Position numbers and translations under genes: made by a program. The notes beneath the pieces are model-generated. The model saw nothing but the letters and a program-made list of their open reading frames with translations. It had not been told where the DNA came from and searched no databases. A stretch of DNA of 64,000 bases from Desulfovibrio sp. JC010 (lineage in GTDB: Bacteria; Desulfobacterota; Desulfovibrionia; Desulfovibrionales; Desulfovibrionaceae): positions 150,243 to 214,242 of the forward strand of contig NZ_VOIQ01000008.1 of the NCBI RefSeq assembly GCF_010470675.1. Reading direction: 5' to 3'. Below are positions 1-55,537 of the stretch, piece after piece (positions within the stretch are counted from its first letter, which is position 1; each line of letters opens with the position of its first letter).

Positions 1-146
1 TCTTCGAAAGAGACGTGGACAACTTCATGAAACGTGTGGTTGCACTGGCTGAACCAATGCTGCTGCTGTTCATCGGCATGCTCATCGCGTTCATTGTTGT
101 CGCCATCATGGGCCCCATTTTCGACCTCACCTCACTCGTAAAGTAG
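1..146 (+). CDS. gspF: Type II secretion/type IV pilus inner-membrane platform protein, GspF/PilC family (3' end only)
   Basis: Only the last 47 codons are in the window, ending at the TAG at 144-146. They encode a charged stretch, then a hydrophobic helix and a tail with PIFDL followed by a short polar end (ending SLVK). The order AEPMLLLFIGM, a long transmembrane helix, then GPIFDLTSL is typical of the extreme C-terminus of GspF/PilC proteins, which form the inner-membrane platform above the secretion ATPase. The kdsD start lies six bases downstream, so the two are probably co-transcribed. A gspE and a gspD lie about 49-53 kb further on, on the opposite strand. GspF and PilC cannot be told apart from this fragment. 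Confidence 0.75.
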   Translation, partial: FERDVDNFMKRVVALAEPMLLLFIGMLIAFIVVAIMGPIFDLTSLVK

Positions 147-4461: not shown

Positions 4462-5064
4462 ATGACTGTTAAAAGATGCTTTGACCTTGTTGTTTCCATC
4501 ACTGCGCTGATCATTTTCTTTCCCGTACTGCTGGGCGTAGCCATCGCCATCCACAAAAAAATGGGCGGCGGTATCTTTTTCATCCAACGCAGGCCCGGTC
4601 TGCACGGCAAGCCCTTCAACATCATCAAGTTCAAAACCATGTCCGACGCCAAAGATGAGCACGGCAAGCTGCTCCCGGATTCGCAGCGGTTGAGCAGGTT
4701 CGGTAAAATACTGCGCTCCACTTCACTTGATGAGCTGCCGGAACTGGTCAATGTTATCTTCGGAGACATGTCTCTGGTCGGCCCGCGCCCCCTGCTCATG
4801 CAATACCTTGAACGCTACAGCCCGGAACAGTCCAGACGCCATGACGTCCTGCCCGGCATCACCGGATGGGCACAAATCAACGGACGCAATGCAATTTCAT
4901 GGGAAGACAAATTCAAGCTTGATGTCTGGTATGTGGATAACCACAACCTGTGGCTGGATATAAAAATCCTCTACCTGACCGTGGCCCGAGTTTTCAAACG
5001 TGAAGGCATCTCCCAGCCCGGGCAAGCCACCGCTCAGGAATTCATGGGTAACGGGGATAAATAA
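4462..5064 (+). CDS. pglC: Undecaprenyl-phosphate phosphoglycosyltransferase, PglC-type
   Basis: 200 residues, the same length as the minimal monotopic phosphoglycosyltransferase PglC and lacking the extra membrane domain of WbaP/WcaJ. Visible features are KRCFDLVVS at the start, a re-entrant hydrophobic helix (about 8-30), IQRRPGLHGKPF at 41-52, FKTM at 57-60, the catalytic Asp-Glu dyad in SLDELPEL (90-91), and LVGPRPLL and LPGITGWAQ. It transfers a phosphosugar, predicted phospho-diNAcBac, from UDP-sugar to undecaprenyl phosphate and so starts the lipid-linked glycan. It follows pglA by three bases and precedes pglD by one, indicating translational coupling. Confidence 0.92.
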   Translation: MTVKRCFDLVVSITALIIFFPVLLGVAIAIHKKMGGGIFFIQRRPGLHGKPFNIIKFKTMSDAKDEHGKLLPDSQRLSRFGKILRSTSLDELPELVNVIFGDMSLVGPRPLLMQYLERYSPEQSRRHDVLPGITGWAQINGRNAISWEDKFKLDVWYVDNHNLWLDIKILYLTVARVFKREGISQPGQATAQEFMGNGDK

Positions 5065-5065
5065 G

Positions 5066-5683
5066 ATGAAAAAAATCATCATCATGGGTGCCGGAGGACA
5101 CGGACAGGTCGTAGCTGATGCCCTGCTACAAATGGAAAAGGCTACCCCTGTTGCCTTTGTGGATGAAAGCAGAGAACTGCACGGTAAGGAATTAATGGGC
5201 ATTCCTGTTCCCGGCGGCAATGCGGAGATCAATAAAATTGAACATGACGGCATTGTCATCGCCCTTGGCAACAATGAATTACGCAGACGGATTTTCAGTG
5301 AACTGAAACAGGCCGGGGAAAATTTGTTCACAGTCATCCACCCAAGGGCAATCATTGCGCCGGATGTTACAATCGGCGACGGCTGTATGATTCTGGCCGG
5401 AGCGGTCATCAATACTCAGGCCGAGATCAAAGACAATACCATCATCAACACCAACTCCACCATTGAACATCACAATGTTATCGGACCGCACGCACACATT
5501 GCCCCGGGAGCGACTCTGGGTGGCGAGGTCACAGTGGAAGAAGAGGCCATGGTCGGCATCGGAGCTACAGTTCTGCCACGGACGGTTATAGGCTCACAAG
5601 CTGTGCTTGGAGGCGGCTCTACGGCGATCAAAGACCTGCCTGACGGCTCAACAGCAGCAGGAGTGCCTGCCCGCATCAAATAG
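5066..5683 (+). CDS. pglD: Sugar O/N-acetyltransferase, PglD-like
   Basis: 205 residues from the ATG at 5066. A longer reading from 5000 would run through the end of pglC and lacks support. An N-terminal nucleotide-sugar domain begins KKIIIMGAGGHGQVV. A C-terminal left-handed beta-helix follows, with hexapeptide repeats and the paired histidines in TIEHHNVIGPHAHIAPG, where PglD has its catalytic His. It is predicted to acetylate the 4-amino group of UDP-4-amino-sugar with acetyl-CoA, giving UDP-diNAcBac. GGGGAT upstream can serve as ribosome binding site. A 140-bp gap follows before pglE, the longest inside this set. Confidence 0.88.
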   Translation: MKKIIIMGAGGHGQVVADALLQMEKATPVAFVDESRELHGKELMGIPVPGGNAEINKIEHDGIVIALGNNELRRRIFSELKQAGENLFTVIHPRAIIAPDVTIGDGCMILAGAVINTQAEIKDNTIINTNSTIEHHNVIGPHAHIAPGATLGGEVTVEEEAMVGIGATVLPRTVIGSQAVLGGGSTAIKDLPDGSTAAGVPARIK

Positions 5684-5823: not shown

Positions 5824-6963
5824 GTGTCCGCAAATAAGAATAAACGCATATACCTTTCCCCTCCGCACATGGGAGGCAAAGAGCAGGAATATGTCCGCCA
5901 GGCTTTTGAAAGCAATTTCATTGCCCCGCTTGGTCCCATGGTCAACGGTTTTGAACAGGATTTTTCAGAGTTGACCGGGTTCGGACATTGTGCGGCACTT
6001 TCCAGCGGGACCGCTGCCTTGCATCTTGCCCTGCGCATTGTGGGAGTTGAGCCGGGGGATGTGGTTATCGCCTCTTCCCTGACCTTTATCGGCAGCGTGA
6101 GCGCGGTAACCTTTATGGGTGCTGAGCCTGTATTCATTGATGCGGATTACAAATCATGGAACATGGACCCGGAGCTGCTGACTGAAGCTGTGGACCATTA
6201 TATTTCAAAAGGACGCAAGCCAAAAGCGGTCATTCCCACCGACCTTTACGGGCAGTGCGCGGATTATGACCGCCTCCTTGAAATTCTTGAGCCGCACGGT
6301 ATCCCGCTGATTGTGGATGCCGCCGAATCCGTAGGTGCCACCTACAAGGGCAGACATGCGGGCAAAGGCGCGCTCATGGCCGCTTACTCCTTTAACGGCA
6401 ACAAGATCATCACCACTTCCGGAGGCGGCCTTCTGGCTTCGGATGATGAGGAAATGATCAGCCGGGCGCGCTGGCTTTCCCAGCAGGCCAAAGAACCGGA
6501 ACCCTATTACGAACACAAGGAAATCGGCTACAACTACCGCATGTCCAATCTGGTAGCAGCTGTGGGGCGCGGACAGGTGGAAGTAATTCCTGACCGGGTG
6601 AAGCGTAAAAGGGAAATTTTTGATTACTATGAGCAGGAGCTTGGCGGCTGTCCCGGCATATCCTTCATGCCTGAAGCGGATTACGGTCAGTGCAACCGCT
6701 GGCTTTCTGTAATGCTGATTGATAAAAAAGAGTTCGGTGCCGGACCGGAAGAAATCCGCCTTGCATTGGAAGCTGAAAACATCGAGTCCCGCCCGGTCTG
6801 GAAACCCATGCATAAACAGCCGGTATTTAATGACAGCACAGTTTTCGGTGGCAAAGTCAGCGAAGACTTGTTTAAACGCGGCCTCTGCCTGCCTTCCGGC
6901 ACAGCCATGACAGCAGAAGATATGAAAAGACTTGTAGACTTGATAAAAGGGTGCGGAAAATAA
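5824..6963 (+). CDS. pglE: UDP-4-keto-sugar aminotransferase, PglE-like (DegT/DnrJ/EryC1/StrS family)
   Basis: 379 residues starting at a GTG. It is a PLP-dependent sugar aminotransferase: the opening IYLSPPHMGGKEQEYVRQAF, SSGTAALHLAL for phosphate binding, DAAESVGATYKG, and the Schiff-base lysine K194 in YSFNGNKIITTSGGG. PglE uses glutamate to aminate UDP-4-keto-6-deoxy-GlcNAc from PglF. The IYLSPPHMGG opening is close to the PglE subgroup. It lies three bases before pglF and downstream of pglD, so the three UDP-diNAcBac enzymes are contiguous. The GTG start is supported by AAAGGA upstream and by agreement with the family N-terminus. Confidence 0.9.
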   Translation: MSANKNKRIYLSPPHMGGKEQEYVRQAFESNFIAPLGPMVNGFEQDFSELTGFGHCAALSSGTAALHLALRIVGVEPGDVVIASSLTFIGSVSAVTFMGAEPVFIDADYKSWNMDPELLTEAVDHYISKGRKPKAVIPTDLYGQCADYDRLLEILEPHGIPLIVDAAESVGATYKGRHAGKGALMAAYSFNGNKIITTSGGGLLASDDEEMISRARWLSQQAKEPEPYYEHKEIGYNYRMSNLVAAVGRGQVEVIPDRVKRKREIFDYYEQELGGCPGISFMPEADYGQCNRWLSVMLIDKKEFGAGPEEIRLALEAENIESRPVWKPMHKQPVFNDSTVFGGKVSEDLFKRGLCLPSGTAMTAEDMKRLVDLIKGCGK

Positions 6964-6966: not shown

Positions 6967-8838
6967 ATGATCCACAACCTGCGTAATGCGAATTTTTATC
7001 TCATGGTCCTTTTGGACCTGCTTATATTTGTAGGTGCTTTTTACGGGGCCTACCTCTTCCGCTTTGATTTCAACGTGCCCGAATTTGCGCAACTTCAATG
7101 CCTTGAGTTGCTCAAATACACTGTGGTCATAAAATTTTCAGTGTTTCTGGGACTCGGACTTTACCGGGGCATGTGGCGTTACACCAGCCTGCGGGACCTC
7201 TGGCACATTCTGGAAGCAACTTTTCTGCAAACCCTGATTCTGGTCACTGTGGTGCTCTATAAATTCGGTTTCGACGGATTTTCTCGTGGCGTATTTATCA
7301 TCGACTGGATGCTGACTGTCTTCATGTGCGGCGGCATGCGAGTCATGATCCGCTCTTTTTTCGCCTTCAAAGACGGTAACGCGATCCAGTTCTCCCCTGA
7401 CACCTGCCCCATTGACGGTGAAAACGTCCTGATCATCGGAGCTGGGCGAGCCGGGGAAAAGGTTGTCCGCGAAATCAGATCCAGCGGACAGCTCAAATAT
7501 TTACCCATCGGTTTTCTGGACAACGATAAGTCCAAAAGAGGCCGGACCATCCATGGAGTACCTGTTCTCGGTCCTTTGAGCGACCTGCAGGAGCTGGTGA
7601 AAAACAAATGCGTCAATGAAATCCTCATTGCTGTGGCCGAGGCTTCCGGCGAACAGATGCGCGAAATAATCGACGCCTGCAAAGAAACCGGACTGCCTTA
7701 TAAAATCCTGCCCGGCATGGATGAAATCATCAACGGCAAGGTCGGCATCAAGGCCCTGCGTGATGTCAGTTATCAGGATTTGCTGGGCCGCGCTCCGGTG
7801 CAGCTGGATACCACCGCCATCAGCGAGTATCTTTCCGGCAAAACCGTACTGGTCACCGGATGCGGCGGGTCCATCGGTTCCGAGCTGGTCCGTCAGGTGG
7901 TGCGCTTCAATCCTGCGAAACTTATCCTCGTGGATTCCAGTGAAGCCAACCTCTACGGCATCCAGATGGAACTGCACCACGAACTTAAATTTCATGATTA
8001 TGTGACCGTGCTCGGCTCCGTTCAGGATGAACAACTCATGGACGAGACTTTCGGCACATACAAGCCTCATACCGTATTTCATGCTGCCGCCTACAAGCAT
8101 GTTCCCATGATGGAGCGCAACCCGTGGCAGGCAGTGCACAACAACATCTGCGGCACCAAAAACGTCATGACCGCAGCAGACAAACACGGCGTGGCCCGAT
8201 TCGTCACTGTCTCCACTGACAAGGCTGTGCGCCCCACCAACATCATGGGCGCGTCAAAACGCGTAACCGAACTGCTCATGCGGCTGTTCCATGATTCCAA
8301 GACCACTTTCATGGCCGTGCGTTTTGGTAACGTAGTGGGTTCTTCCGGATCGGTAGTGCCGCTGTTCCGCAGGCAAATTGAAAAAGGCGGCCCGGTTACC
8401 GTCACCCATAAAGACGTAACCCGCTACTTCATGTCCATATCCGAAGCGGCCCAGCTCATTCTGCAGGCCGGGGTAATGGCTGACGGCGGTGAAATTTTCA
8501 TTCTCGAAATGGGTGAACCCGTCAAAATCGCCGACATGGCCCGTGACCTGATCCGCCTTTCCGGCAAGGAACCGGACAAAGACATTGAAATCATCTTCAC
8601 AGGTCTGCGCGAGGGTGAAAAACTCTATGAAGAGCTGATCACCGAAGGCGAAGGCATTGTCCGCACCGAACATGACAAGATTATGGTTCTCAAAAGTATT
8701 GAAAATGATCTTGAAGCCTACTGCGCCAAATTTAAAAGCCAGCTGGTCGAAATGAAGAAAGAAGCTGACGCATTCCACGCAGATGGAGTACGCGTAGTTC
8801 TGCATGACGTGGTGCCTGAGTTTGATGAGGAAGGGTAG
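6967..8838 (+). CDS. pglF: Membrane-bound UDP-GlcNAc 4,6-dehydratase, PglF/WbpM family
   Basis: 623 residues. Four transmembrane helices (about 9-130) precede a CoBE-type Rossmann domain (VLIIGAGRAGEKVV) and a short-chain dehydrogenase domain with the NAD motif VTGCGGSIGSE (296-306). The active site reads T417-D418-K419 and M427-x3-K431. Methionine in place of the usual tyrosine is the hallmark of large membrane-anchored dehydratases such as PglF, WbpM and FlaA1-long. It converts UDP-GlcNAc to the UDP-4-keto-6-deoxy sugar, the first step toward diNAcBac. It overlaps nothing and starts three bases after pglE. The product could also feed other 2,4-diamino sugars. Confidence 0.93.
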   Translation: MIHNLRNANFYLMVLLDLLIFVGAFYGAYLFRFDFNVPEFAQLQCLELLKYTVVIKFSVFLGLGLYRGMWRYTSLRDLWHILEATFLQTLILVTVVLYKFGFDGFSRGVFIIDWMLTVFMCGGMRVMIRSFFAFKDGNAIQFSPDTCPIDGENVLIIGAGRAGEKVVREIRSSGQLKYLPIGFLDNDKSKRGRTIHGVPVLGPLSDLQELVKNKCVNEILIAVAEASGEQMREIIDACKETGLPYKILPGMDEIINGKVGIKALRDVSYQDLLGRAPVQLDTTAISEYLSGKTVLVTGCGGSIGSELVRQVVRFNPAKLILVDSSEANLYGIQMELHHELKFHDYVTVLGSVQDEQLMDETFGTYKPHTVFHAAAYKHVPMMERNPWQAVHNNICGTKNVMTAADKHGVARFVTVSTDKAVRPTNIMGASKRVTELLMRLFHDSKTTFMAVRFGNVVGSSGSVVPLFRRQIEKGGPVTVTHKDVTRYFMSISEAAQLILQAGVMADGGEIFILEMGEPVKIADMARDLIRLSGKEPDKDIEIIFTGLREGEKLYEELITEGEGIVRTEHDKIMVLKSIENDLEAYCAKFKSQLVEMKKEADAFHADGVRVVLHDVVPEFDEEG

Positions 8839-13933: not shown

Positions 13934-15688
13934 ATGATCAAAAAGATCAAAGCACTTTTAACACCGGCCCAGAAACGAAGCATGATCGGGCTGGTCTTTA
14001 TGTCCATCCTTATCTCCGGCATTGAGACAGTGGGCATCTCGGCCATACTGCCTTTCATTTCCGTTGCCGGTGATTTTTCATTGTTGCAGAACAATGAATA
14101 CTATCACTTTGTCTACACCTTTCTGGGCTTCAGCACTGCCACATCATTCGTGATCACATTTGGGGCCGTGCTGATCGGCTTTTATATTTTCAGGGGCATA
14201 TTCAACCTCAGTTATATGTACCTGATCCATAAGTATTCTCAGGGCATATGCCTCTCGCTGGCAACCCGGCTGTTCTCCAATTACGTTCATATCAAATATC
14301 AGGATATGACCACCCGCAACAGCTCCGACCTGTCCAAAAAACTTATCACCGAAACCAGCTTTGCAGCCACTTATTTTTATTCCCTGCTGCTGCTCATTTC
14401 AGAGCTTTTTGTCTCATCTTTTCTGTATATCGCTTTGCTGGTGGTCAACTGGAAAATAACACTGGTCATTACCGTATTTCTGGGCGTAATGGTCCTTTTC
14501 TTGGTCAAAGTGGTAACGTCCCTGATCAAAAAAGAGGGTCTGAAACGCAACGCTCATCAGGAAGTTTACTACCGCACAATCAGCGAAACACTGGGCAACC
14601 TGAAATTCATCAAGCTGCTCTCCGGCGAGAAGACCGCTGTGGATGCCCTGCATAAATCAGGACAGGGTTACGTAAGCGCGCTGGTCCTGAACAGCACTTA
14701 CAACAACGTACCCCGGCTCTCACTGGAAAGCATCGGCTTTTCCATGCTCATCGCCGCCATGATCTTCGCGCTGATGCACGGCTATAACATTACCGAAGTC
14801 ATCCCCGTTGTTTCACTCTTCGCGCTGGCCATGTACCGTCTACTGCCTTCGGTGAACCGCATTCTGAGCAGCTACAACAACATGGTCTACTACACCAAGA
14901 CCATCGACCTGCTCTACGAAGATTACAACATCGAGACCCATGATCTTGGTGACGAACCTCTTGAGTTCAACAAAGAAATCAGCATCAAAGACCTGACCTT
15001 CGGCTACACGGAAGAACCGGTCCTGAAAAATATTTCCATGAACATCAAAAAGGGTGAGAAAATCGCCCTCATCGGTGAAAGCGGTGCCGGGAAGTCCACC
15101 CTCGCCGACATCATCATCGGCATGTACACCTCCTATGCGGGAGAAATTAATATCGACGGCCAGCGCATGTCCGAAGAAAACCTGCTCTCATGGCGCAGCA
15201 GGATCGGTTACATCCCGCAGTCCATTTATCTTGTTGATTCCAATGCCGCCAACAACGTTGTTTTCGGCCGCGAATACGATGAAGACAAAGTCCGCCGTTC
15301 ATTTGAAAAAGCAGAGATCATGGACTTCCTGAACACCCAGCAGGGACTGCAGACCATGGTCGGCGAAAACGGCATGCAGCTTTCCGGGGGCCAGAAACAA
15401 CGCATCGGCATTGCCCGCGCAATTTACGGCGATCCGGATGTTTACATTCTTGATGAAGCCACTTCGGCTTTGGACAAAGAGACCGAAGCAAGAATCATGG
15501 ACCAGATTTTCGAAGTCAGCGCAGGTAAAACCCTGATCATCATTGCCCACCGCCTTTCCACCATTGAGCGTTGCGACAAGGTCTACCGCATCGAGGACAA
15601 GGGAATTTCCCGGATCGACAAAAGCTCTATCTCCGAACTGACCCTGCCCGAAAACACGGAAGAGGAAGAATCATGCGCATCGGAATAA
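13934..15688 (+). CDS. pglK: ABC-type lipid-linked oligosaccharide flippase, PglK/WlaB family
   Basis: 584 residues, a half-transporter with six predicted helices in about 1-320 and one ATPase domain (Walker A GESGAGKST at 381-389, signature LSGGQ at 483-487, Walker B ending ILDEATSALD, H-loop IIAHRLST). The N-terminal region follows Campylobacter PglK in arrangement: a first helix reading GIETVGISAILPFISVAGDFS and later YRLLPSVNRILSSYNNMVYY. PglK uses ATP to flip undecaprenyl-PP-oligosaccharide to the periplasm, where PglB acts. It is in the same operon as pglA-F here, while pglB is at 47-49 kb. The recognition as PglK-like is by remembered family pattern. Confidence 0.88.
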   Translation: MIKKIKALLTPAQKRSMIGLVFMSILISGIETVGISAILPFISVAGDFSLLQNNEYYHFVYTFLGFSTATSFVITFGAVLIGFYIFRGIFNLSYMYLIHKYSQGICLSLATRLFSNYVHIKYQDMTTRNSSDLSKKLITETSFAATYFYSLLLLISELFVSSFLYIALLVVNWKITLVITVFLGVMVLFLVKVVTSLIKKEGLKRNAHQEVYYRTISETLGNLKFIKLLSGEKTAVDALHKSGQGYVSALVLNSTYNNVPRLSLESIGFSMLIAAMIFALMHGYNITEVIPVVSLFALAMYRLLPSVNRILSSYNNMVYYTKTIDLLYEDYNIETHDLGDEPLEFNKEISIKDLTFGYTEEPVLKNISMNIKKGEKIALIGESGAGKSTLADIIIGMYTSYAGEINIDGQRMSEENLLSWRSRIGYIPQSIYLVDSNAANNVVFGREYDEDKVRRSFEKAEIMDFLNTQQGLQTMVGENGMQLSGGQKQRIGIARAIYGDPDVYILDEATSALDKETEARIMDQIFEVSAGKTLIIIAHRLSTIERCDKVYRIEDKGISRIDKSSISELTLPENTEEEESCASE

Positions 15689-43298: not shown

Positions 43299-43349
43299 TG
43301 CTAACCTTTCAATTTCAGGCTGTAAAATTTATTTCGTCGCTCCAAAAAG

Positions 43350-43376
43350 CCCTCCCCCTGCAAGGCAGGGAGAGGG
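43350..43376 (-). terminator. Intrinsic terminator between epimerase and acetyltransferase genes
   Basis: Stem CCCTCCCCCTGC (43350-43361) and GCAGGGAGAGGG (43365-43376), one mismatch, 3-nt loop. On the minus strand it is followed by CTTTTTGG, a T5 run. It could end the epimerase transcript and limit read-through into the minus-strand glycan unit. Confidence 0.65.
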
Positions 43377-43402
43377 ACTCAATCTTCGTATAAAACCAAT
43401 TA

Positions 43403-44458: not shown

Positions 44459-44493
44459 AACTATCTACCTCTTAGGCTTCTTAGTTCTTTACA

Positions 44494-44578
44494 AATATAG
44501 CAAGACACTTGTCTTAAACTTTAACTTTACTTAAACACGTTGAGCTAGTTTGTAAGGTTATTCTGTACAAACTGTCAA
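44494..44578 (-). promoter_or_regulatory. Candidate promoters and 14-bp palindrome upstream of the minus-strand glycan unit
   Basis: On the minus strand TTGACA (44573-44578) is followed after 17 bp by TTACAA (44550-44555), a weak -10. Nearer the gene a perfect inverted repeat AAGACA-CT-TGTCTT lies at 44502-44515 and a TATATT hexamer at 44494-44499. The palindrome would suit an operator overlapping a second promoter. AAGAGG near 44470 may be the ribosome binding site. Confidence 0.4.
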
Positions 44579-44640
44579 CTCAAATTCTTAATCTCTAACT
44601 GAAGCCTCTTTACTCATAACCCCGCAAACAGAAAGAAATA

Positions 44641-44664
44641 GGGCCACCCCCTAAGGAGTGGCCC
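44641..44664 (-). terminator. Terminator downstream of the sequon-rich protein gene
   Basis: Stem GGGCCAC (44641-44647) / GTGGCCC (44658-44664), extendable with one mismatch to 10 bp, 35 bp after the stop of the minus-strand gene. The minus-strand flank reads TATTTCTTTC, moderately T-rich. Placement after the last gene of the protease-gspDE-pglB unit supports transcription termination. Confidence 0.6.
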
Positions 44665-44698
44665 ATGTTTTCGGTAAGTATTTTATCGGATCAGTATG

Positions 44699-46930
44699 CT
44701 ACTTCTTGAAGCGGCTGCGAACAACAGCTACGAGAGGAGCAACCATCAGGAGCAGCCATTCCAGACCGAAGCCAGCTGCGGGGTTGAATACACAACCGGA
44801 GGAGCTGGAGGAGGAACCGGCAATGGAACCGAGAACAACCGGGTCAATGAACTGACCAACGGAACCGTCGTTCTTAGCATCCAGAGTACCCTGACTTTCA
44901 ATTACGTAGTTAACGTAATAAGTGGTACCGGCATCAAGCTCGGAGTTAGAACCTTTGTAACCGGTGGTCGGGGCATCGGAAATCCACCATGCACCATTTG
45001 TGCCCTTCGCTGCATCAGCGGAAGAAGCGTAGGTAAGAGCATGAGAGTTGGCACTGTCAACCATGAGCTTGTAAAGAGCCAGAGTAGAGATCTTACCGGA
45101 TACACCCTGAATGGTGAACTGGAAGGTCATGTACAGCTTGTTAGTGTTGGTAGCCAGCATATTAGCGGTCATATCTCCGAGAGTGGAGTTAAAACCGATA
45201 GCAGGAGTTACAGGAATAAAGCTGGAAGGTACGCTGGTCCATCTTTCACGGATTTCACTCAGAGTGTAATCGGTGGAGTTGGGGGTAATAACGTTACCAG
45301 CTGCAACGAGCAAGTTGTTGAATGCTGCGGTACCGTTGGTCTGGTAGGTAGAACCAGCAGTTGCAGCTTCGGAAACGAGAGCGGTATCAGGAATCAGAAC
45401 TGCGAGACCGAAAGCAGAACGCTCACCATCGGTACCAGCAGGCTCGTAGATACCAACTGCGTAGTCTTTATCAGTAGCGAAGCGACCATAGAAGTTACCA
45501 GCAAGAGAAGAACCGTCGCTGGAGGTAATGGTCATGTTGGACTGAGTCAGGGACTTGAACTGGCCGGTGCTTGCAACAGCAGCGGAGTAACCGTTCAGGT
45601 GAACCTGTCTCTGCTGCATTTCATCACCGGAAGTGGCAGTGTCAGCTTCGTTGTATACGAGACCACCATCGATAATGCTCAGGTTGCTGTCAAAGTTCAT
45701 AGCCATGATACCCTGAGTAGCGTTCTTGGAACCATGATCTTCACCCCAACCGGCGTAAACCATTTTGTAACCACGGTTCTGCAGGTCGCTGGTAGCGATG
45801 CTCTTGGAATCTTTAATCATGATAGCGTATGCACGAACAGGTCTGGCGTTGAGAGCGTTACCATCTACCAGATTGTAAACAATACCGGAGATCATGTTGC
45901 GGTCTTTGTTGAGAACACCGTACTGCATAAGGTTAAAGGAACCACCTGCACCGTCACCATCGATTTCGATGAGACCGGCAGCTGCATCAGGAGAAGTTGC
46001 GTTATAGTGGTACCATTTATCGGTACGGTCAGCTTCTTCAGAGCGGTCATCGTTGTAGTAAACGACTTTTGCCTGAGCGTTGTAAGTGGTGGGAGCTGTG
46101 TCCAGAGCAGTAGGAGCGGAGTTGAATTTAACCTGACCAACACCGTAGAAGGTTTCCTGCTCGGTTCCGTAGTCGTAACCAACTACATAGTAAGACCAGG
46201 TGGTGTTATCAAATACGCAGTTTGTAACAGTACCGTTCTGGTAGCTGAGCATGAAGGTGGAACCTTCAACATCAGCACTCTGATCGTATGTAGCACCGCC
46301 ACCGGCCAGAGTCGCGTTACCGAGACCTGCCATCAGCTTAGCACCGGCGGTGGAGATGAAATTAACAGGAAAGTAGAAGGGAGTTTCACCAACTTTGGCA
46401 GCAGCGTCCAAGGTGGCGTTGACGTTGGACATCATGGTCAGACCACTGATTTTGTAACCAGGCTCAGTGGTAACTGCGCTCATGCGTCTGTTGTTAAGGT
46501 TGAAGCTGGTTGCGTTTTCAGACTGGAAATCTGCACTACCGTTGTTCTGGTGGATTACACCAATAACGTTGGCAATAGCTGCTTCGTCAGTGGAGTTGAA
46601 GAAACCAAAGTCAGCACTCACAGAGGAGTTACCACCAGGTCCGTTACCGTCAATAACTTCAGAAGTGACACTGAAAATCTTAACGTGAGATGCGTTGAAA
46701 GGAATAAAAGTGGAGTTAAAAGAACCGTCATCAGCATCACCAAGAGAGGCGTTAGCTGTAAAACCTGTAAATACACGCAGGTTAGCGGTCCAATCATCAG
46801 TGTTGACGGTCTTCTGCGCAGCGTCAATTGAGTAGGTTCCGTTCAAGGATTTGGGGAACACTACATCTGCCCAGGCACTGGTGGCAGCCAGCAGCATGAG
46901 CACTGTAAAGAGAACTGTAATCTTTTTCAT
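44699..46930 (-). CDS. Secreted, sequon-rich protein with JDVT-CTERM-like C-terminal sorting signal
   Basis: 743 residues. Sec signal peptide (MKKITVLFTVLMLLAATSAWA, cleavage before DVV). The mature part is low in cysteine, rich in Asn, Ser, Thr, Gly and Ala, with no recognised domain. I count 19 N-X-S/T sequons (X not Pro), 14 of them N-X-T. Only one, D-S-N-L-S, has an acidic residue at -2. The C-terminus is tripartite: SSSSS-G-C-VFNPAAGFG, a hydrophobic helix, then RSRFKK. This follows the CxxNPxAxF pattern of JDVT-CTERM sorting signals. It lies 99 bp downstream of pglB on the same strand with AGGGAG as ribosome binding site. A terminator follows. Predicted surface or secreted glycoprotein. 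Actual function unknown. Confidence 0.85.
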   Translation of the reverse strand: MKKITVLFTVLMLLAATSAWADVVFPKSLNGTYSIDAAQKTVNTDDWTANLRVFTGFTANASLGDADDGSFNSTFIPFNASHVKIFSVTSEVIDGNGPGGNSSVSADFGFFNSTDEAAIANVIGVIHQNNGSADFQSENATSFNLNNRRMSAVTTEPGYKISGLTMMSNVNATLDAAAKVGETPFYFPVNFISTAGAKLMAGLGNATLAGGGATYDQSADVEGSTFMLSYQNGTVTNCVFDNTTWSYYVVGYDYGTEQETFYGVGQVKFNSAPTALDTAPTTYNAQAKVVYYNDDRSEEADRTDKWYHYNATSPDAAAGLIEIDGDGAGGSFNLMQYGVLNKDRNMISGIVYNLVDGNALNARPVRAYAIMIKDSKSIATSDLQNRGYKMVYAGWGEDHGSKNATQGIMAMNFDSNLSIIDGGLVYNEADTATSGDEMQQRQVHLNGYSAAVASTGQFKSLTQSNMTITSSDGSSLAGNFYGRFATDKDYAVGIYEPAGTDGERSAFGLAVLIPDTALVSEAATAGSTYQTNGTAAFNNLLVAAGNVITPNSTDYTLSEIRERWTSVPSSFIPVTPAIGFNSTLGDMTANMLATNTNKLYMTFQFTIQGVSGKISTLALYKLMVDSANSHALTYASSADAAKGTNGAWWISDAPTTGYKGSNSELDAGTTYYVNYVIESQGTLDAKNDGSVGQFIDPVVLGSIAGSSSSSSGCVFNPAAGFGLEWLLLMVAPLVAVVRSRFKK

Positions 46931-47029
46931 TGAAAAGATCTCCCTAGTTAAAAATTAAAAAAACAACAATTCAAAACACTTACCAAAAAACACAGAAACA
47001 TATTACACTTAAGCCCTTCCCCAATCAAG

Positions 47030-49156
47030 CTATTTTTCAGGATTTTGGTTAAGAACTTTATAAATTCTCACAGAGGGACATCCTTCATAAATCAGTTCAA
47101 ACCTACCTTTTAATTCAGGAGAATCAGCTGCCCCCCAGAGCAAGCGAGCCATGGTACTGTCATGAACAGCGTCATCTATCAGATATGCTTGAGAGTTCTG
47201 ATCATTGAAAATTAGATGTAATCCACTGTGATTCTTAAATGTCCCGGACTTATTTCCAGAAGAGTTCAAGATATTATATGAACTCAGCGGCAGAGGTTTA
47301 TTATTGCCTTCAAATAAGTTGCCACTATTGAAATCCACCTGGAATTGATTCCTGACGGTACCCACAAAGGGATGCTGGCTGCTTCCTGTAGAAATATTCC
47401 ACATACCGTAATACAAAATCCACCGTGAAAGGGCGATATCTTTCCAGGTAACCACCAGATACTGATCCTCGTCCCCCTTAAAAAGGTAATCATTTGCTCC
47501 CAGAGCACCGATAATACTTTGAACTTCGCCCACCGGCATTTTGCTCCATGTACTAGCCGGGTTGTTGCCCTGAGTAGCCGAGTATTTAATCAACTGACTC
47601 GATTGAAGCAATGAGGGTGTGGACATGGCTAGAGCAAGAGGATAAAGCACCGGACCGGCATGATTACCCCCGTTAGCAAACGAATTCTGCCCGGTGTAAT
47701 ACATAGTTGCATACCCCCAGTCCCACCAGGTCCAGACAGTGCTGCTTGCAGACATTGAATCAGCAGACTCGATAAGCCCTACAGCGTGTTCTTTTGAAAT
47801 AATCGGGGTGACAGGTGTCTTTGTATAAAAATCAAAATTCGCACCAACCAAGTATACCACCAGACAACAACTGGTCAGACCTGCAACTAAGGTTTCCTTT
47901 TTATCCTTAAAAAATCTATTCACCAAAAATATAGCCCAGTAACCGAGCCCTATCCCGACCGGTATTCCAGCGAACATGGCGAACCGCCCCCCCATAAAAG
48001 GGGAAACCATAGCGGCAGCCGCAAACGGAAGCAGCAGAATTGAGAGAGGAGAATAATAGATGCATGCTGCGAAGCACACAAAAGCCGCTGCACCTACGTA
48101 GACATTGCCGCCGCTGGTAGAAAAAAAATCGGCCCATTTAACATTCTGGGCTTCAATAATACTCTGGGCGATCCCCGGATAAACAGGCCCTGCTGCTTTT
48201 ACTGCATCAGCTGTCGGCTTTGTGTAGGATGTAATCCTATTCAACACTACAAAAAAAAGCTTTGTACCGAGACCGCTGAACAGACTTAAAGCAATAAAAA
48301 GCACCAGATAAACATATAGATTTTCATAGTTGGAAATTTTTTCAAACTGCGGACTGAGATAAAAACAAATCAAAGCCAAAGCTACAACAACCCCTGCAAA
48401 CCCGAACATGCCGGACGCTGCAAAAACGAGCAGTCCACGCATGGCAATAAGTCTTTGATTTGACTTACTGCAAAAAAGGGCCAAAAAAAGGCCGATAAGA
48501 AAGGTCCCAAATCCGAAAACCTGAACAACCCCATGCCATGAATCACCATAACAGGTTAATATTCCGGCAAAAAAAGGAAGCAGGTAATCCGTCAACACAG
48601 GCTGATAATCATCGCTCTCTTCTTTTTTAAACCAGCTGGACTTGGTTGTCATAACCAGCCAACGGGCCATCAAGACAGTAATGAGCAGCGGGAAAAGCAG
48701 AGAAATCAAGTCGGTATCGTAGTACGAAAGACGTGTGCGAAAATAAAAATGCGGAACTGAAGTAGCAAAAACAGAAGCCACAATCCCGGTCCACGGACCG
48801 CCCAGCAGCATACCCCATGCAAAGGCGGCTACTGCTGTGAATCCGCAAAAGACAGCCGGGAGCCAGAAAGCGATATTTCCGTAAGGGGCGCCGGTGATAC
48901 TGCCTAGGACACGCAACAGCCCGGCCATGGGATTGTCTACGGCACTGCCCACACCCTTGGCTCCGGCCAGCCAGAAATAGGCATCATGGGTACCCATGAT
49001 ATATTCGCCGTTAACCATGAAGGCGGGATTGTCCCATTTGGGAAAATCAATACAGCGCAGTCCGAAGGCAAACGCAAAACTGATCAAGGAAAAAAGGAGA
49101 AAAATCTTCCAATCCGCCATCCAATCGGGACGGCGCAGATGTTCGCGGATATTCAT
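47030..49156 (-). CDS. pglB: Bacterial oligosaccharyltransferase, PglB/STT3 family
   Basis: 708 residues, close to the 713 of Campylobacter PglB. About eleven to thirteen N-terminal transmembrane helices and a soluble periplasmic domain. Metal/acceptor motifs are present: the first external-loop Asp D58 in GTHDAYFW, D147-T-D149 in SYYDTDL, and the sequon-binding WWDWGY at 477-482. The enzyme moves lipid-linked glycan to Asn in N-X-S/T on periplasmic proteins. Desulfovibrio PglB has been described with relaxed acceptor needs (established literature, recalled not searched). It lies 38 bp after gspE and 99 bp before the sequon-rich protein. C7 tract at 47987-47993. It is separated from pglACDEFK by over 30 kb. 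Confidence 0.95.
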   Translation of the reverse strand: MNIREHLRRPDWMADWKIFLLFSLISFAFAFGLRCIDFPKWDNPAFMVNGEYIMGTHDAYFWLAGAKGVGSAVDNPMAGLLRVLGSITGAPYGNIAFWLPAVFCGFTAVAAFAWGMLLGGPWTGIVASVFATSVPHFYFRTRLSYYDTDLISLLFPLLITVLMARWLVMTTKSSWFKKEESDDYQPVLTDYLLPFFAGILTCYGDSWHGVVQVFGFGTFLIGLFLALFCSKSNQRLIAMRGLLVFAASGMFGFAGVVVALALICFYLSPQFEKISNYENLYVYLVLFIALSLFSGLGTKLFFVVLNRITSYTKPTADAVKAAGPVYPGIAQSIIEAQNVKWADFFSTSGGNVYVGAAAFVCFAACIYYSPLSILLLPFAAAAMVSPFMGGRFAMFAGIPVGIGLGYWAIFLVNRFFKDKKETLVAGLTSCCLVVYLVGANFDFYTKTPVTPIISKEHAVGLIESADSMSASSTVWTWWDWGYATMYYTGQNSFANGGNHAGPVLYPLALAMSTPSLLQSSQLIKYSATQGNNPASTWSKMPVGEVQSIIGALGANDYLFKGDEDQYLVVTWKDIALSRWILYYGMWNISTGSSQHPFVGTVRNQFQVDFNSGNLFEGNNKPLPLSSYNILNSSGNKSGTFKNHSGLHLIFNDQNSQAYLIDDAVHDSTMARLLWGAADSPELKGRFELIYEGCPSVRIYKVLNQNPEK

Positions 49157-49194
49157 AAATAAACCCTGTTCTTAAAATTTGGAAAACCGGAAAT

Positions 49195-50676
49195 TTACAG
49201 CTTGGTAACCCTGACCACTTCTTCAAGGGTGGTCACGCCTTCTTTGACCAGTCTTACACCATGGTCAACCATGGTCTCACGGCCCATTTCTTTGGCGTAA
49301 GCTTTAATCTGATCGGAAGAAGACATTTCCATGATAAGACCGCGCATGTCTTCGGTGACCGGAATAAGTTCATAAACCCCGCGACGTCCGCTGAAGCCAG
49401 TAAAGTTGCAGTGCTCGCATCCGGCTCCGGCAGTCTGGGTTGCGGGCAACCCTTCTGCTTCCTCAAAAAGCTTGTAGGTGTTCTCGGAAACATCCACAAT
49501 CCGTGAGCAGTGCTTGCAGTTGACACGCACCAGACGCTGCCCGAGAACAAGGGAAAGGGAGGACGCCAAAAGGAACGGCTCAATGCCCATATCGAGCATT
49601 CTGGTCACAGCGGTTGCGGCATCGTTGGTATGCAGGGTTGAAAGCACAAGGTGACCGGTAAGCGATGCCTGTACGGCGGTGCTGGCAGTTTCCTGATCTC
49701 GAATCTCACCCACAAGGATGATATCCGGGTCCTGACGCAGAAAGGATCGGATGGTGGTGGCAAAAGTCATGCCTGCGGCCTTGTTGACCTGCACCTGGTT
49801 GATCCCTGAAAGCTGGTATTCCACCGGGTCTTCTACGGTGACGATATTTTTATCGTCACGCGGCAATTCACTGAGTCCGGCATAGAGGCTGGTTGTTTTA
49901 CCGGAACCGGTAGGACCGGTAACCAGCACAATGCCGTGGGGCTGAGCCAAAACTTTACGGAAAAGCTCAAGGTCCGCCCCTTTCAGGCCGAGATCTTCGA
50001 GATTAAGAATATTCTTGGAGCGGTCCAGAATACGCAGAACAGCCTTCTCGCCGCTCATGGTCGGAATGGTGGAAACACGGACATCAACCTCTTTCTGCCC
50101 GAGCTTAAGAAAAATACGTCCATCCTGCGGTTTGCGGCTTTCAGCTACGTCCATCTCGCCCATAACCTTAAGACGGGCAATGACTGTAGGCTGCAGCCCT
50201 TTATCCAGACGCTTGACAGTTTTTAGAACCCCATCCTGTCGGTAACGAACCACGAATCCATTGCCCTGACCTTCAAAATGGATATCACTGGCCCCGGTGG
50301 AAATAGACTGATGCAGGGTCTTGTTCACCAGCCGGACAATGGGTGCATCGTCATGGGACCAGCCGAGAAGATCCTGCCCGTCTTCACCTTCCTCCCCATC
50401 AGAATCGGATTCAATAGCACTTTCTTCTTCCCAGACAGTAAGAGCCTGCTCAAGCAAAGGAAAAAACTCTTCTTCGGCTACAATCTCAGAAACAACATTT
50501 TTACCCATTTTCCAGGCCAGAAAGTCAGCCATAGGCAAAGAAGTTTCATTCTGTAGCAGAAACTTGATTTCCTTATCCCGCACTTCCACAGGAATGAATT
50601 CATTGCGCTGCGGGAAGGTCAGAAACAGGTCCACAACCTCACGGGGGACAAGGTTCAAATCATAAGAGTTGCTCAA
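49195..50676 (-). CDS. gspE: Type II secretion ATPase GspE
   Basis: 493 residues. N-terminal GspE/PilB domain, an acidic linker (EEESAIESDSDGEEGED), then the ATPase: Walker A GPTGSGKTTSLYA, Asp box EDPVEYQ, Walker B region ILVGEIRDQETA and His box STLHTNDAA. A C-terminal four-Cys zinc element (CKHC, CEHC) is typical of GspE/PilB. It drives pseudopilus assembly from the cytoplasm. Twelve bases after gspD on the same strand. T2SS and T4P ATPases are similar. The adjacent secretin with N0-N3 layout and the gspF-like end at the window start favour T2SS. Confidence 0.92.
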   Translation of the reverse strand: MSNSYDLNLVPREVVDLFLTFPQRNEFIPVEVRDKEIKFLLQNETSLPMADFLAWKMGKNVVSEIVAEEEFFPLLEQALTVWEEESAIESDSDGEEGEDGQDLLGWSHDDAPIVRLVNKTLHQSISTGASDIHFEGQGNGFVVRYRQDGVLKTVKRLDKGLQPTVIARLKVMGEMDVAESRKPQDGRIFLKLGQKEVDVRVSTIPTMSGEKAVLRILDRSKNILNLEDLGLKGADLELFRKVLAQPHGIVLVTGPTGSGKTTSLYAGLSELPRDDKNIVTVEDPVEYQLSGINQVQVNKAAGMTFATTIRSFLRQDPDIILVGEIRDQETASTAVQASLTGHLVLSTLHTNDAATAVTRMLDMGIEPFLLASSLSLVLGQRLVRVNCKHCSRIVDVSENTYKLFEEAEGLPATQTAGAGCEHCNFTGFSGRRGVYELIPVTEDMRGLIMEMSSSDQIKAYAKEMGRETMVDHGVRLVKEGVTTLEEVVRVTKL

Positions 50677-50688
50677 TTTATTGCCCTG

Positions 50689-52725
50689 CTACCCGTCAGA
50701 CGAGGAAGAAGTAACATTATTTATATCCGATTCATCAGAGTCATTTTTGTAGGTGTTGAATTCCTTATCAATAAAGGTTTCAAAACGCTTACGCTGGCTG
50801 CGGTACTTGTCCATTTTGGCCTTGCTGATGGCCTCAAGCTGCTCCGTTGTCTGGATGATACGGGCTGAGAGAAAAACCATCAGGGTACTTTTGTTGCCGC
50901 TATTGCTGGTTGTTTTGAAAAGCCAGCCCAGCAAAGGCAGATCAGAAAGATATGGAACCCCTGCCTCAGTACGAGTCTGCTCAGCCCTAATCAAACCGCC
51001 TATAACCATGGTTGATCCATCCGCAAGCAGAACTGTGGTATCAGTGGTTCGATCATTTGTAATCGGCAATTCAGATGTACTGGCCTCAGAAACAGTATTG
51101 TAGGTCTGATAAACCTTAAGCTTAATCAACCCGTCTTCGCGATTGATGCGAGGAGTAATCTTCAGCTTTATACCGACATCTTTATAGGAATAGGTGGAAA
51201 CAACGGAATCACCGCTGGTAGAACTTTCCCCGGATTTGTACGGCCTGTTCTGACCTACAAAAATCTCTGCCTCAGCATTGTCAAGCGTCATAATCTGGGG
51301 AGCGGAGATGAGATTAAAATCTGTAGCTGATTTAGTAAAATTAACCAAAGCCCCGATAGTGGGAAAAGTTTGGCCGGCATAGGAAATCGTGTCACCGAGC
51401 ACGCCCATGGAGTATCCACCGGGGACATTGGAAGGATTTGATGCATAGGACGAAAGCTTGCTGCTCTCCGTTTTAGTGTAGCCCAAGGTGGCCACACTGC
51501 CGCCCATATCAATACCGCCCTGCCATTCCACGCCGAATTCTTTGGAGTTATCCAGAGTGGTCTCAAGAACAAGAGCTTCAATATAAACCTGATCCTGTGC
51601 CTGATCGAGTTGATCCACAAACTTGTCAATCTGGGGAAGCTGGTCAGGACTGGCCATAACAATCAGGGTATTTGTTGTTTCATCTGCGGAAACTTGAACA
51701 TCGCTGGAATCATCGGAGGAACTGGAATATCCGCCGGAGCCGGATGCAGTTGTTCTGGAGGCCGAAGAGGCTCCGGAACTGGAAGAAGCCCCGCCATCTT
51801 TAGATTTTCCGGAAGAAGGAATCCCTCCACCACTGACAAGGCTCTTCAGCACATCACCTGCCACAACGGCTTCAATATTGTGCAGTCTGTAAATTTTCAT
51901 CTTGGAGTAAGCTTCACTGGCCCGGTCAAGCTTTGAAATCAACCTTTTAATAGTATCAATCTGGTCAGCACTACCGGAAACCAGCAGGCTGTTTGCCCAG
52001 TCAAGGGATTCAATTACCGGAGGAGTGCCGGACTTTCCGGATGTAGACAATTTTTTATAAAAAGAAGACAATTTGCTTGCCACAGTCTTGGCATTTGTTT
52101 TTTCCAATTCAATCAGAGTCGATTCCTGCCGGGCTCCGGCTCTCTTCAGGATGCCCAACAGGGTCTTCATCTTATTTACATTACTTTGTAAATCACGGAT
52201 CATCACCGCATCAGCCATGGGCACAGGGGTAACCCTGCCGATTCTGGAGGCGACCTCTTTCAATACACCCTGAACTTTATCAGGCGCTATCTTGCCCTCA
52301 AGCTGAAAAATTGAAGTAATGATTTCCTCACCGTCTCCAGAGGAAGGAGCAGCTTTAACATCAGGGGAAATAGTTTGCGCATCCCGCAAAGGCAGCACGT
52401 AAGTTACATTATCCCTGCTGACTGCCTGAAAACCAGACCCGCTCAATACCTGCTGGAAAACAGCCATCAATTCCGGTTCGGACAAGGACTGCCCTGCATA
52501 GACACTGATATTTGTTCCCGGTAATTGCCCGGCATTAAAAACGATATTTCTGCCAGTATAGCGACCTACGAATTTAATAAACTCAACAAGGGAAATGCTT
52601 TCCAGATTGGCATGAACACCGTCGCCGCCTTCAGGCTGGGCCACGGCCACAGAAACCATGAGGACCACGGACAAAACCAGACTCACGACTAATCTACAAA
52701 AATTCTTCAGCATATTCAGCGCCAT
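50689..52725 (-). CDS. gspD: Type II secretion outer-membrane secretin GspD
   Basis: 678 residues from ATG 52725, preceded by GGTGGAG. In-frame codons before it lack a ribosome binding site. Signal peptide (about 1-28, ending SVAVA). N0 domain starts near VHANLESISLVEFIKFVGRYTGRN, then N1-N3 repeats, and N3 is interrupted by a Ser/Gly-rich segment (SGKSKDGG ... SDDSSD). The secretin core begins near ALVLETTLDNSKEFGVEW and runs through ITPRINREDGLI and TTVLLADGSTMVIGGLIR to LPLLGWLF. Forms the outer-membrane channel. A tail of about 60 residues follows, rich in basic, Ser and acidic residues. It is the second gene of the protease-gspD-gspE-pglB unit. Confidence 0.92.
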   Translation of the reverse strand: MALNMLKNFCRLVVSLVLSVVLMVSVAVAQPEGGDGVHANLESISLVEFIKFVGRYTGRNIVFNAGQLPGTNISVYAGQSLSEPELMAVFQQVLSGSGFQAVSRDNVTYVLPLRDAQTISPDVKAAPSSGDGEEIITSIFQLEGKIAPDKVQGVLKEVASRIGRVTPVPMADAVMIRDLQSNVNKMKTLLGILKRAGARQESTLIELEKTNAKTVASKLSSFYKKLSTSGKSGTPPVIESLDWANSLLVSGSADQIDTIKRLISKLDRASEAYSKMKIYRLHNIEAVVAGDVLKSLVSGGGIPSSGKSKDGGASSSSGASSASRTTASGSGGYSSSSDDSSDVQVSADETTNTLIVMASPDQLPQIDKFVDQLDQAQDQVYIEALVLETTLDNSKEFGVEWQGGIDMGGSVATLGYTKTESSKLSSYASNPSNVPGGYSMGVLGDTISYAGQTFPTIGALVNFTKSATDFNLISAPQIMTLDNAEAEIFVGQNRPYKSGESSTSGDSVVSTYSYKDVGIKLKITPRINREDGLIKLKVYQTYNTVSEASTSELPITNDRTTDTTVLLADGSTMVIGGLIRAEQTRTEAGVPYLSDLPLLGWLFKTTSNSGNKSTLMVFLSARIIQTTEQLEAISKAKMDKYRSQRKRFETFIDKEFNTYKNDSDESDINNVTSSSSDG

Positions 52726-52880
52726 AAGCTCCACCGGAACCCCGGTAAGAATCATTTTTATCTATATGAAATTCTCAGCCATCCAGCTGAAAATTCTTAA
52801 ATTCTACATCCAAAGAGTTGCATCCCTGCAAACATCCTATACTTATAAAAACCCGTCAAGCTTAACCCGATACGGACAAA

Positions 52881-53333
52881 TCACATAAACTGATAAAACA
52901 AAAATGCGTTATAGGCAAAGTGGATAAGGGTCACCGAAACCAGACTGCGGTATCTCTGCCAGATATATCCGAAAGCCAACGAGGGGAAAAAGGTAAGCAA
53001 GGCCCAATGAGCGGGCTGGTGAACCAAATGCACGCAGGCAAAAGTCATAGAAGCCAAAAGGTTTGCCAGACTGAGCGGCCCCAGCTTCCATCCGTATCTG
53101 AAAAGACGATCAATCCCCTCCTGCAGCAGGAATCTGAAAAAAAACTCCTCAAAAAGAGCCTTGAGAAAAAGAATCCCCAAAGACAGCTTAATGTCAGGTT
53201 CAGGCACATACAGGCCTACAAATCCCAAGGAAAAAAATAAATAGAAAATGGGGTCAGTAAGGCTTATCGCCCCCCATTTGAACTGACACCAAATCCCTTT
53301 CAAGATTCGGTTTACGATAAAATCATAAACCAT
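52881..53333 (-). CDS. CPBP-family glutamic intramembrane protease, candidate JDVT-CTERM sorting protease (MrtJ-like)
   Basis: 150 residues, four to five hydrophobic helices. All three CPBP motifs are present: EEFFFR (62-67), F98-x3-H102 in FACVH, and H138-x3-N142 in HFAYN. Short CPBP proteins act as dedicated processing proteases in several C-terminal sorting systems, including the JDVT-CTERM system (NCBI name MrtJ, recalled). A JDVT-CTERM-like client is encoded four genes downstream on the same strand. A 155-bp gap separates it from gspD, so it could be the first gene of the unit or independent. The weak AGAAG site supports ATG 53333. Confidence 0.75.
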   Translation of the reverse strand: MVYDFIVNRILKGIWCQFKWGAISLTDPIFYLFFSLGFVGLYVPEPDIKLSLGILFLKALFEEFFFRFLLQEGIDRLFRYGWKLGPLSLANLLASMTFACVHLVHQPAHWALLTFFPSLAFGYIWQRYRSLVSVTLIHFAYNAFLFYQFM

Positions 53334-53426
53334 ACGCTTCTATATCTACCCAATTATTATATTATTCAGACACTTGAAAAGGACAAAACCATCATCCCGG
53401 TCAAGAGATTTCCTCTTGTAGCAGGT

Positions 53427-54521: not shown

Positions 54522-54658
54522 AACCTCTCGGCAAAGTCCAGACGAAGTAAAAGGAAAATAACTGCCCCAGAAAGGTCCCTACTCGCCAGCCTGCAAATAA
54601 TCCAGCGCAGTCTCAGGGTCAAGTTTCAGTAAAAAGAGCACCGTTTTTAAAATCAACT

Positions 54659-54688
54659 TTGACAAAAAGAGGCCAGATCAATTAGATT
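54659..54688 (+). promoter_or_regulatory. Candidate sigma-70 promoter for the periplasmic protein gene
   Basis: TTGACA at 54659-54664 and TAGATT at 54683-54688 (18-bp spacer, 4/6 match to TATAAT). It lies about 50 bp before the ATG at 54740. The intergenic region 54522-54739 is divergent, so it could also hold the promoter of the GT9 gene. Confidence 0.4.
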
Positions 54689-54739
54689 ACAACTAAGTAT
54701 GTTCCCACAATCATTTCATCAAGTAAAATGGGAGAAACC

Positions 54740-55321: not shown

Positions 55322-55345
55322 CTGTTTATCACATAATGTAAAATA

Positions 55346-55380: not shown

Positions 55381-55537
55381 TATATACATTAGAGAAGGTA
55401 TGCTATTTTAACAGCTTATGCTTGCATAGTGCATAAATAACCGCTATTAGAACCCTCCCCGAACAAAACATTTCCGACACACTATCCCATTAACATCCTT
55501 CCCATGAAGGAATGAGCAGCAATACACTGCAAGAACA

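Follow-up and report, generated by a model that had tools for sequence, protein, structure and literature searches.

A conserved Desulfovibrio locus in which pglB, type II secretion genes and mrtJ lie beside a hypervariable, sequon-rich protein

The question raised by this locus is whether an oligosaccharyltransferase, two type II secretion system (T2SS) genes, an intramembrane protease, and a secreted protein encoded side by side in Desulfovibrio sp. JC010 belong to a single pathway. Each of the three processes concerned, N-glycosylation, C-terminal sorting by CPBP proteases, and type II secretion, is known in its own right. The genes lie on the minus strand of a 64,000-nucleotide stretch of the genome (here called the window) and are, in order of transcription, mrtJ, gspD, gspE, pglB, and a gene for a 743-amino-acid protein that we call the client (Table 1). 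An earlier reading of this DNA, the original prediction, had described five genes in this order on one strand, and the coordinates of the open reading frames (ORFs) agree with it. Its gap lengths of 12 bp (gspD–gspE), 38 bp (gspE–pglB), and 99 bp (pglB–client) were right; the mrtJ–gspD gap measures 125 bp and not 155 bp, a value that fits a start of gspD at the eleventh codon. The terminator proposed to follow the client is present as a GC-rich hairpin with a T-rich stretch. We conclude that this is probably a surface-glycoprotein locus that joins N-glycosylation, C-terminal sorting, and the T2SS, in which pglB and the client are exchanged and the client is transcribed at least partly from a promoter of its own. 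The earlier interpretation as a whole is partly supported.

The predicted CPBP-family protease is MrtJ: it scored 79.5 bits against NF033192 (curated cut-off 75), matched PF02517, and has residues E62, E63, R67, H102, H138, and N142 that did not vary in 20 homologues. These residues fit the pattern EExxxR, H, and HxxxN, which we take to be the catalytic motif of the CPBP family. GspD scored 430 bits against TIGR02517 (cut-off 351). GspE scored 559.5 bits against TIGR02533, under the cut-off of 630, and its match to PF00437 was clear and over the cut-off; the names given to both genes in the original prediction can be kept. PglB exceeded the cut-offs of PF21436 (56.4 bits; cut-off 23) and PF02516 (31.3 bits; cut-off 24.5), and its WWDWG at 477–481, D58, D147, D149, and E335 were invariant in 16 homologues; a WWDxG motif and acidic catalytic residues are presumably hallmarks of STT3/PglB enzymes. 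Its score against the NCBIfam equivalog NF050801 was 62.1 bits, well short of the cut-off of 1300. The name pglB is thus correct at the STT3/PglB-type level, and the protein appears to be a relative outside that equivalog, which would transfer glycan to Asn as expected of its family. It was the only pglB match in the genome.

At its N terminus the client has a signal peptide; its C-terminal end consists of a Ser run, an invariant Cys, and a hydrophobic helix followed by RSRFKK. This CTERM tail was nearly invariant in 15 clients whose overall identity was 33–65%. In 26 aligned tails the Cys was invariant, and the hydrophobic helix, the basic end, and the pairing with MrtJ were all found. Tails were present in 18 of 58 genomes searched, all 18 of which had MrtJ over the cut-off; six more MrtJ genomes gave no tail with the tail model. 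Cleavage of the Cys-containing tail by MrtJ would follow from the MYXO-CTERM/MrtX model discussed below, and what the present data contribute is this co-distribution.

Conservation of the neighbourhood, which the original prediction had put forward for checking, was found throughout most of the genus. MrtJ exceeded the cut-off in 24 of the same 58 genomes, including all 17 of the window's genus, which is probably Maridesulfovibrio. Besides the window itself, the surroundings of the other 23 MrtJ loci were examined (16 from congeners and seven from outside the genus). The order mrtJ–gspD–gspE–pglB–client was kept in 14 of the 16 congeners, counting genome G014, where the client frame is interrupted and the other four genes are full-length (locus L045, ~10270–12393). 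Genome G010 has mrtJ–gspD–gspE only; its pglB lies elsewhere, 282 bp before a different tail protein of 1226 amino acids. At the seven loci outside the genus (L049–L053, L048 of G031, and L054 of G047), neither gspDE nor pglB was found near mrtJ, the contig of L048 ending ~260 bp past mrtJ; MrtJ alone is therefore not predictive of the locus. Loci L049–L053, from another family of the order (f5), hold the five top-scoring MrtJ homologues, which by eye lie near genes such as a translation-factor-like ORF. None of their genomes yielded a window-type tail.

When 348 genomes of the order were searched with the client profile, relatives turned up in four further genera (E ≤ 1e-20). Regions around the client, pglB, or mrtJ were examined for three of them, G500, G634, and G716, which belong to the window's family. 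In G500 a single strand carries the client, an insertion sequence-like gene, gspC, gspD, gspE, gspF, and pglB, and a second pglB adjoins mrtJ and gspN–G on a different contig. G634 has gspD–gspE–gspF–pglB with mrtJ ~6 kb further on; in G716 a single gene separates gspG from mrtJ, and gspC–gspD–gspE come next. In G031, which represents the fourth genus, tails and MrtJ were accompanied by only a weak partial pglB match (1.4e-9). In a sample of the phylum, 3 of 395 genomes exceeded the MrtJ cut-off, the window's own included. One of the others, G267 (L196), has a plain pair of tail protein and MrtJ, and the remaining one has a tail protein ~2 kb upstream of mrtJ (tails recognized by eye). In another family of the phylum, a sub-threshold mrtJ-like gene was seen beside gspG (L195 of G131, 41–1512).

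The original prediction counted 19 N-X-S/T sequons in the client, and this count is correct. It compares with 10.4 expected from shuffles of the client's own composition (p 0.0045) and with 12 reversed motifs, a modest excess for the window client alone. Over the whole group the excess was large. In the 15 pglB-linked clients, 325 sequons compare with 157 expected and 134 reversed motifs, whereas 32 tail proteins of the same genus encoded away from pglB contained 227 sequons, 291 reversed motifs, and 259 expected. Median observed/expected ratios were 2.02 for linked and 0.86 for unlinked proteins (Mann–Whitney p 6e-8, which overstates independence because the homologues are related). The unlinked set was chosen by the tail pattern and omitted ten ORFs (two tail-less ones in the genus and eight from the G031 loci, some of them tailed); tail matches without an ORF (L104, L128, and one ORF of L122) also stayed outside its count, and the pglB-linked tail protein of G010 was counted in neither group. 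Sequons occupied 69 alignment columns across the clients, nine of which were filled in 13–15 of the 15; N60, N112, N205, N403, N465, N532, and N551 (window numbering) are examples of conserved sites. The +2 position was Thr in 254 and Ser in 71 sequons. Asp or Glu was found at −2 in only 13 of the 325, a rarity that fits the relaxed Desulfovibrio PglB enzymes described in PMC4894442. Clients of other genera also had an excess (25 vs. 9.9 expected in G634 and 28 vs. 13.1 in G500); the tail proteins of G031 had none (4 vs. 3.7, 0 vs. 3.1, 7 vs. 5.6, 6 vs. 4.6, 4 vs. 5.0, and 8 vs. 7.4). These counts support the conclusion that the client is selectively sequon-rich. A few kilobases from pglB in G500, two further ORFs (L212, 1–4119) have 25 and 12 sequons and 11 and 6 reversed motifs; by eye, neither has a CTERM tail.

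Because the original prediction envisaged a route dedicated to a single client, tail proteins were also counted per genome. At least two were detected at E ≤ 0.001 in 15 of the 16 congeners and a single one in the window's own genome. With further tail proteins in most congeners, and with the 32 unlinked ones unenriched as a group, the idea of a route serving one client is not supported as written; it looks as if only glycosylation is client-specific.

The remaining T2SS genes of the genome are ~50 kb from gspDE: gspC, gspF, and gspG–M(N) lie just to the left of the window, which contains the 3′ end of gspF. Of these, gspF, gspG, and gspM scored over their cut-offs, and K was weak; H–J were recognized from their position and a methylation motif, L and N solely from where they lie, and gspC as a PDZ-like protein in the right position that scored below the cut-off. 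The ORF at the gspN position (L159, 1898–2644) had no Pfam match. Similar distances between gspD and gspF, from ~57 to 86 kb, were found in G001, G004, and G010. Since G004 has no second GspG, gspDE there seem to be part of the sole T2SS. These results support the view that gspDE complete a T2SS whose other genes sit ~50 kb away. The window's genome also has a second, divergent T2SS-like cluster (L160, G000:C11). By eye, sensor-like and response-regulator-like genes lie beside gspC in the window's genome (L159, 8711–10878), the same kind of pair follows pglB in G500 (L212, 4142–6433), and a regulator only is present in G634 (L214, 11970–12872); they are possibly regulators of the T2SS/pglB locus.

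Between the two halves of the T2SS is a glycan island with pglC-, pglD-, pglE-, pglF-, and pglK-like genes (Table 1). The true start of the pglD-like gene is probably later than annotated, since the match starts at residue 25. In outline, this set would suffice to make and flip a lipid-linked oligosaccharide.

Mean pairwise identities among 15 loci were 89% for gspE, 80% for mrtJ, 73% for gspD, 52% for pglB, and 42% for the client. In the pair L035/L036, gspE was 99%, pglB 64%, and the client 41% identical. In three of four close pairs, nucleotide identity fell from 80–90% to ~40–65% inside pglB and rose again at the client tail; the break fell at differing places, and the fourth pair (L034/L047) had no sharp break. 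Mantel tests gave r 0.85 for mrtJ and gspD vs. gspE, r 0.00 for the client vs. gspE, and r 0.38 (p 0.005) for the client vs. pglB given gspE. The genes beyond the client differ among species (by eye). We conclude that pglB and the client are hypervariable and border on a glycan island that undergoes exchange.

A TTG-N3-N17-TA site was found 98–126 nt upstream of the client start in all 14 loci tested (G014 left out), at a common alignment position and with a common 17-nt spacing. Its mean score was 7.8 of 12, compared with 5.5 in shuffles. The loose form of the site is present in 74% of shuffles, and ties in spacing were settled in favour of 17; the weight of this result rests on the shared position and spacing. 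A stricter promoter scan did not report the window site at 47000–47028. Upstream of this site the gaps are short (gspD–gspE, 9–13 bp; gspE–pglB, 38–66 bp). A conserved, covarying hairpin in the 5′ untranslated region, ~20–90 nt before the client start, was found in 12 of these 14 loci (L032, L034–L040, L042, L043, L046, and L047) and was not seen in the window or L044. In 7 of its 8 core pairs both sides had changed, 95.8% of the cells pair, and none of 500 shuffles reached any of the five measures used; the loop lies around CAUNGGG. Rfam gave no match in window positions 40000–56000. By eye, hairpins resembling the window terminator follow the client in the congener loci. A promoter-like site of its own, a leader hairpin, and a terminator together suggest that the client may be expressed separately and perhaps strongly. 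The simple co-transcription of the original prediction is not borne out as written: the conserved site argues against it, while still allowing read-through from the upstream genes.

The pathway that we consider probable would proceed as follows. The client, which has both the signal peptide and the C-terminal helix in its sequence, would cross the inner membrane by means of the first and be tethered by the second. On the periplasmic side PglB would move an oligosaccharide onto many of the N-X-T/S sites; the pglC/D/E/F-like enzymes would assemble this oligosaccharide and the pglK-like transporter would flip it, all of them being encoded in the same window. By analogy with the MYXO-CTERM/MrtX model, Cys713 would be lipidated by some enzyme and MrtJ would remove the helix. 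The T2SS, including GspDE, might then take the folded glycoprotein to the cell surface, as proposed from MYXO-CTERM and GlyGly-CTERM proteins. Transcription of the client would start at least partly at its own promoter. Recombination at the edge of the variable glycan island would swap pglB and the body of the client and so diversify the cell surface, while the conserved tail would keep a new client compatible with MrtJ; the tail, MrtJ, and GspDE would be conserved because they form the common route. A more ambitious version, in which the oligosaccharyltransferase is built into the T2SS locus, N-glycosylation and export of the MrtJ-processed client are one process, and the client/PglB cassette is swapped like O-antigens, is possible, and we offer it only tentatively.

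Several observations weigh against a surface-glycoprotein pathway of this kind. In G002, mrtJ is followed directly by pglB, and both are kept at a locus that has lost gspDE and the client. The same genome also speaks for the pathway, since the client, gspDE, and the genus-type gspF/G are missing from it together and its single T2SS is of a different type. The G634 client lies on a separate contig from pglB, beside pglK- and pglF-like genes; gspF adjoins pglB divergently on another contig of G716; and both G500 and G716 have extra pglB matches away from gspF. The pglB-linked tail protein of G010 has sequons at the level of chance (13 vs. 12.3 expected; 13 reversed), showing linkage without enrichment, and an unlinked tail protein of G012 (L129, 305–2302) is enriched (19 vs. 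9.5), showing that linkage is not needed; the latter may be another glycosylated client. The close pair L039/L045, in which pglB is 78% and the clients 33% identical, weakens the idea that pglB and the client are strictly co-inherited. The tail itself resembles JDVT-CTERM, as had been predicted, and does not qualify as a member of the curated family, its last 42 residues scoring 14.4 bits against NF033191 (cut-off 27).

Some of these facts would be explained if pglB belonged to a glycan island that merely borders the T2SS genes and glycosylated many periplasmic proteins, the export of the client being unrelated. The island does adjoin the client and varies between species, identity falls inside pglB in three of the four close pairs, and G500 has its two sequon-rich, tail-less ORFs near pglB. 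Against this, pglB and T2SS genes are adjacent in four genera in varied arrangements, and no T2SS gene was detected in nine pglB neighbourhoods (20 kb, L090–L098) of tail-less genomes picked from pglB matches, five of the same family and four of other families; this control is small, and since its tblastn queries (E 1e-4) were taken from the window's genome, divergent T2SS genes could escape it. A strong sequon excess, moreover, was seen only in the linked client type and its relatives, L129 excepted, and we regard a neighbourhood without a pathway as unlikely. The version of the original prediction, in which all five genes form one polycistronic operon with a sole dedicated client, would account for the short gspD–gspE and gspE–pglB gaps, the terminator after the client, and the one tail protein in the window's own genome; the promoter-like site kept before the client and the further tail proteins in nearly all congeners make it very improbable. 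The sequons could also reflect an Asn/Thr-rich beta structure and have nothing to do with glycosylation. The client has 56 Asn in 743 amino acids and its model is beta-rich, yet the excess exceeds that in composition-keeping shuffles, the reversed motif is unenriched, Thr is preferred over Ser at +2, and unlinked tail proteins of the same genus have no excess as a group. Of the explanations weighed here we give this one the least credence.

An STT3-type enzyme and C-terminal processing come together in Archaea, where archaeosortase ArtA, with AglB, acts on an abundant S-layer N-glycoprotein; ArtA is a protease unrelated to MrtJ, and that system lacks both an outer membrane and a T2SS. Among experimentally tested pathways the nearest is MYXO-CTERM of Myxococcus (PMC11980579): the tail is cut by MrtX, the Cys is proposed to be lipidated, and the protein reaches the surface through the T2SS. 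It shares with our locus a CPBP-family protease, a tag with an invariant Cys, helix, and basic end, and surface localization by the T2SS; its model has dozens of clients and no oligosaccharyltransferase, the main text of that paper making no mention of glycosylation, and it belongs to another phylum. The two-gene MrtJ/JDVT-CTERM neighbourhood also described there resembles the window in its protease, which is over the family cut-off, and its nearby client. Unlike that pair, the window adds T2SS genes and pglB, its tail is sub-cut-off, and most congeners have several tail proteins. GlyGly-CTERM proteins likewise combine a C-terminal tag, an intramembrane protease, and the T2SS (PMC3237569). Their protease is a rhomboid; according to that paper, rhombosortase does not mark out any subclass of T2SS, and a link to pglB was not seen in the part consulted. 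The Desulfovibrio PglB enzymes of PMC4894442, whose relaxed −2 position was tested on engineered acceptors, share their family and that relaxation with the window's PglB; no CTERM client or T2SS link was seen in the part consulted. In GspN-dependent lipoprotein export, the T2SS takes acylated proteins to the surface (PMC12802150); an N-terminal lipobox is used there, compared with the C-terminal Cys here, and the window's genome has an ORF at the gspN position.

The original prediction held the combination to be undescribed. No open-access paper was found that combines PglB, the T2SS, and N-glycans, or an oligosaccharyltransferase, the T2SS, and an intramembrane protease (most subscription papers lay outside these searches). 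The parts of the machinery are from known families or near them, the client body is unmatched, and the combination was not found in the open-access literature. To the known systems the locus adds a protease gene physically linked with those of the T2SS, as well as pglB and a sequon-rich client. The client is a likely natural substrate of a Desulfovibrio-type PglB, and the locus connects a myxosortase-type protease physically to the T2SS and offers a testable model for a variable surface glycoprotein in a Gram-negative bacterium. Judged from sequence, the placing of sugar attachment, tail trimming, and export beside a fast-changing client suggests that a decorated cell coat is made on a single production line.

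Table 1. Features of the locus and of the glycan island, in window coordinates
Feature	Position	Strand	Basis or remark
gspF 3′ end	1..146	+	gspC and gspG–M(N) further left, outside the window
pglC-like initiating phosphosugar transferase, 200 aa	4462..5064	+	PF02397, 213.7 bits
pglD-like sugar acetyltransferase	5000..5683	+	TIGR03570, 225 bits, over cut-off 160.8
pglE/LegC-like aminotransferase	5824..6963	+	TIGR04181, 357 bits, under cut-off 420
pglF-like nucleotide-sugar dehydratase	6967..8838	+	PF02719, 400.9 bits
pglK-like ABC flippase	13934..15688	+	Best NCBIfam match PglK NF050066, 566 bits, under cut-off 1000
Intrinsic-terminator-like hairpin 3′ of client	44641..44664	-	GC-rich hairpin and T-rich stretch
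Client, secreted protein, 743 aa, 19 sequons, beta-rich model, Cys-containing CTERM tail	44699..46930	-	Translation
Client CTERM tail: Ser run, G-C713-VFNPAAGFGLEW, hydrophobic helix, RSRFKK	44702..44815	-	
Client signal peptide, residues 1–21	46868..46930	-	Read off the translation by eye
Client promoter-like site TTGATT-17-TAATAT	47000..47028	-	8/12 consensus matches; shared alignment position and spacing
pglB, STT3/PglB-type oligosaccharyltransferase, 708 aa	47030..49156	-	PF21436, PF02516
gspE, T2SS ATPase, 493 aa, TTG start	49195..50676	-	PF00437, 458.7 bits
gspD, T2SS secretin, 688 aa	50689..52755	-	TIGR02517; Secretin and GspD N0 domains
mrtJ, CPBP-family intramembrane glutamic protease, 150 aa	52881..53333	-	NF033192, PF02517, catalytic residues

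The client had no useful sequence match in Pfam, NCBIfam, or the PDB. Assignment of a function by fold was set aside: the AlphaFold2 model had a pLDDT of 67 and gave weak Foldseek matches only (AttH, fHbp, the NHBA barrel, and TbpB), with a model-normalised TM of at most 0.15 among the best 50 matches listed. With these weak PDB matches, we do not claim that the client is an S-layer protein. Its C-terminal domain alone (model pLDDT 84) had no PDB match below E 0.26. Apart from the tail itself, a beta domain of ~150 amino acids near the C terminus is common to the tail proteins (L099–L126, last ~190 residues); the client version had no Pfam match, and the domain is perhaps a secretion domain.

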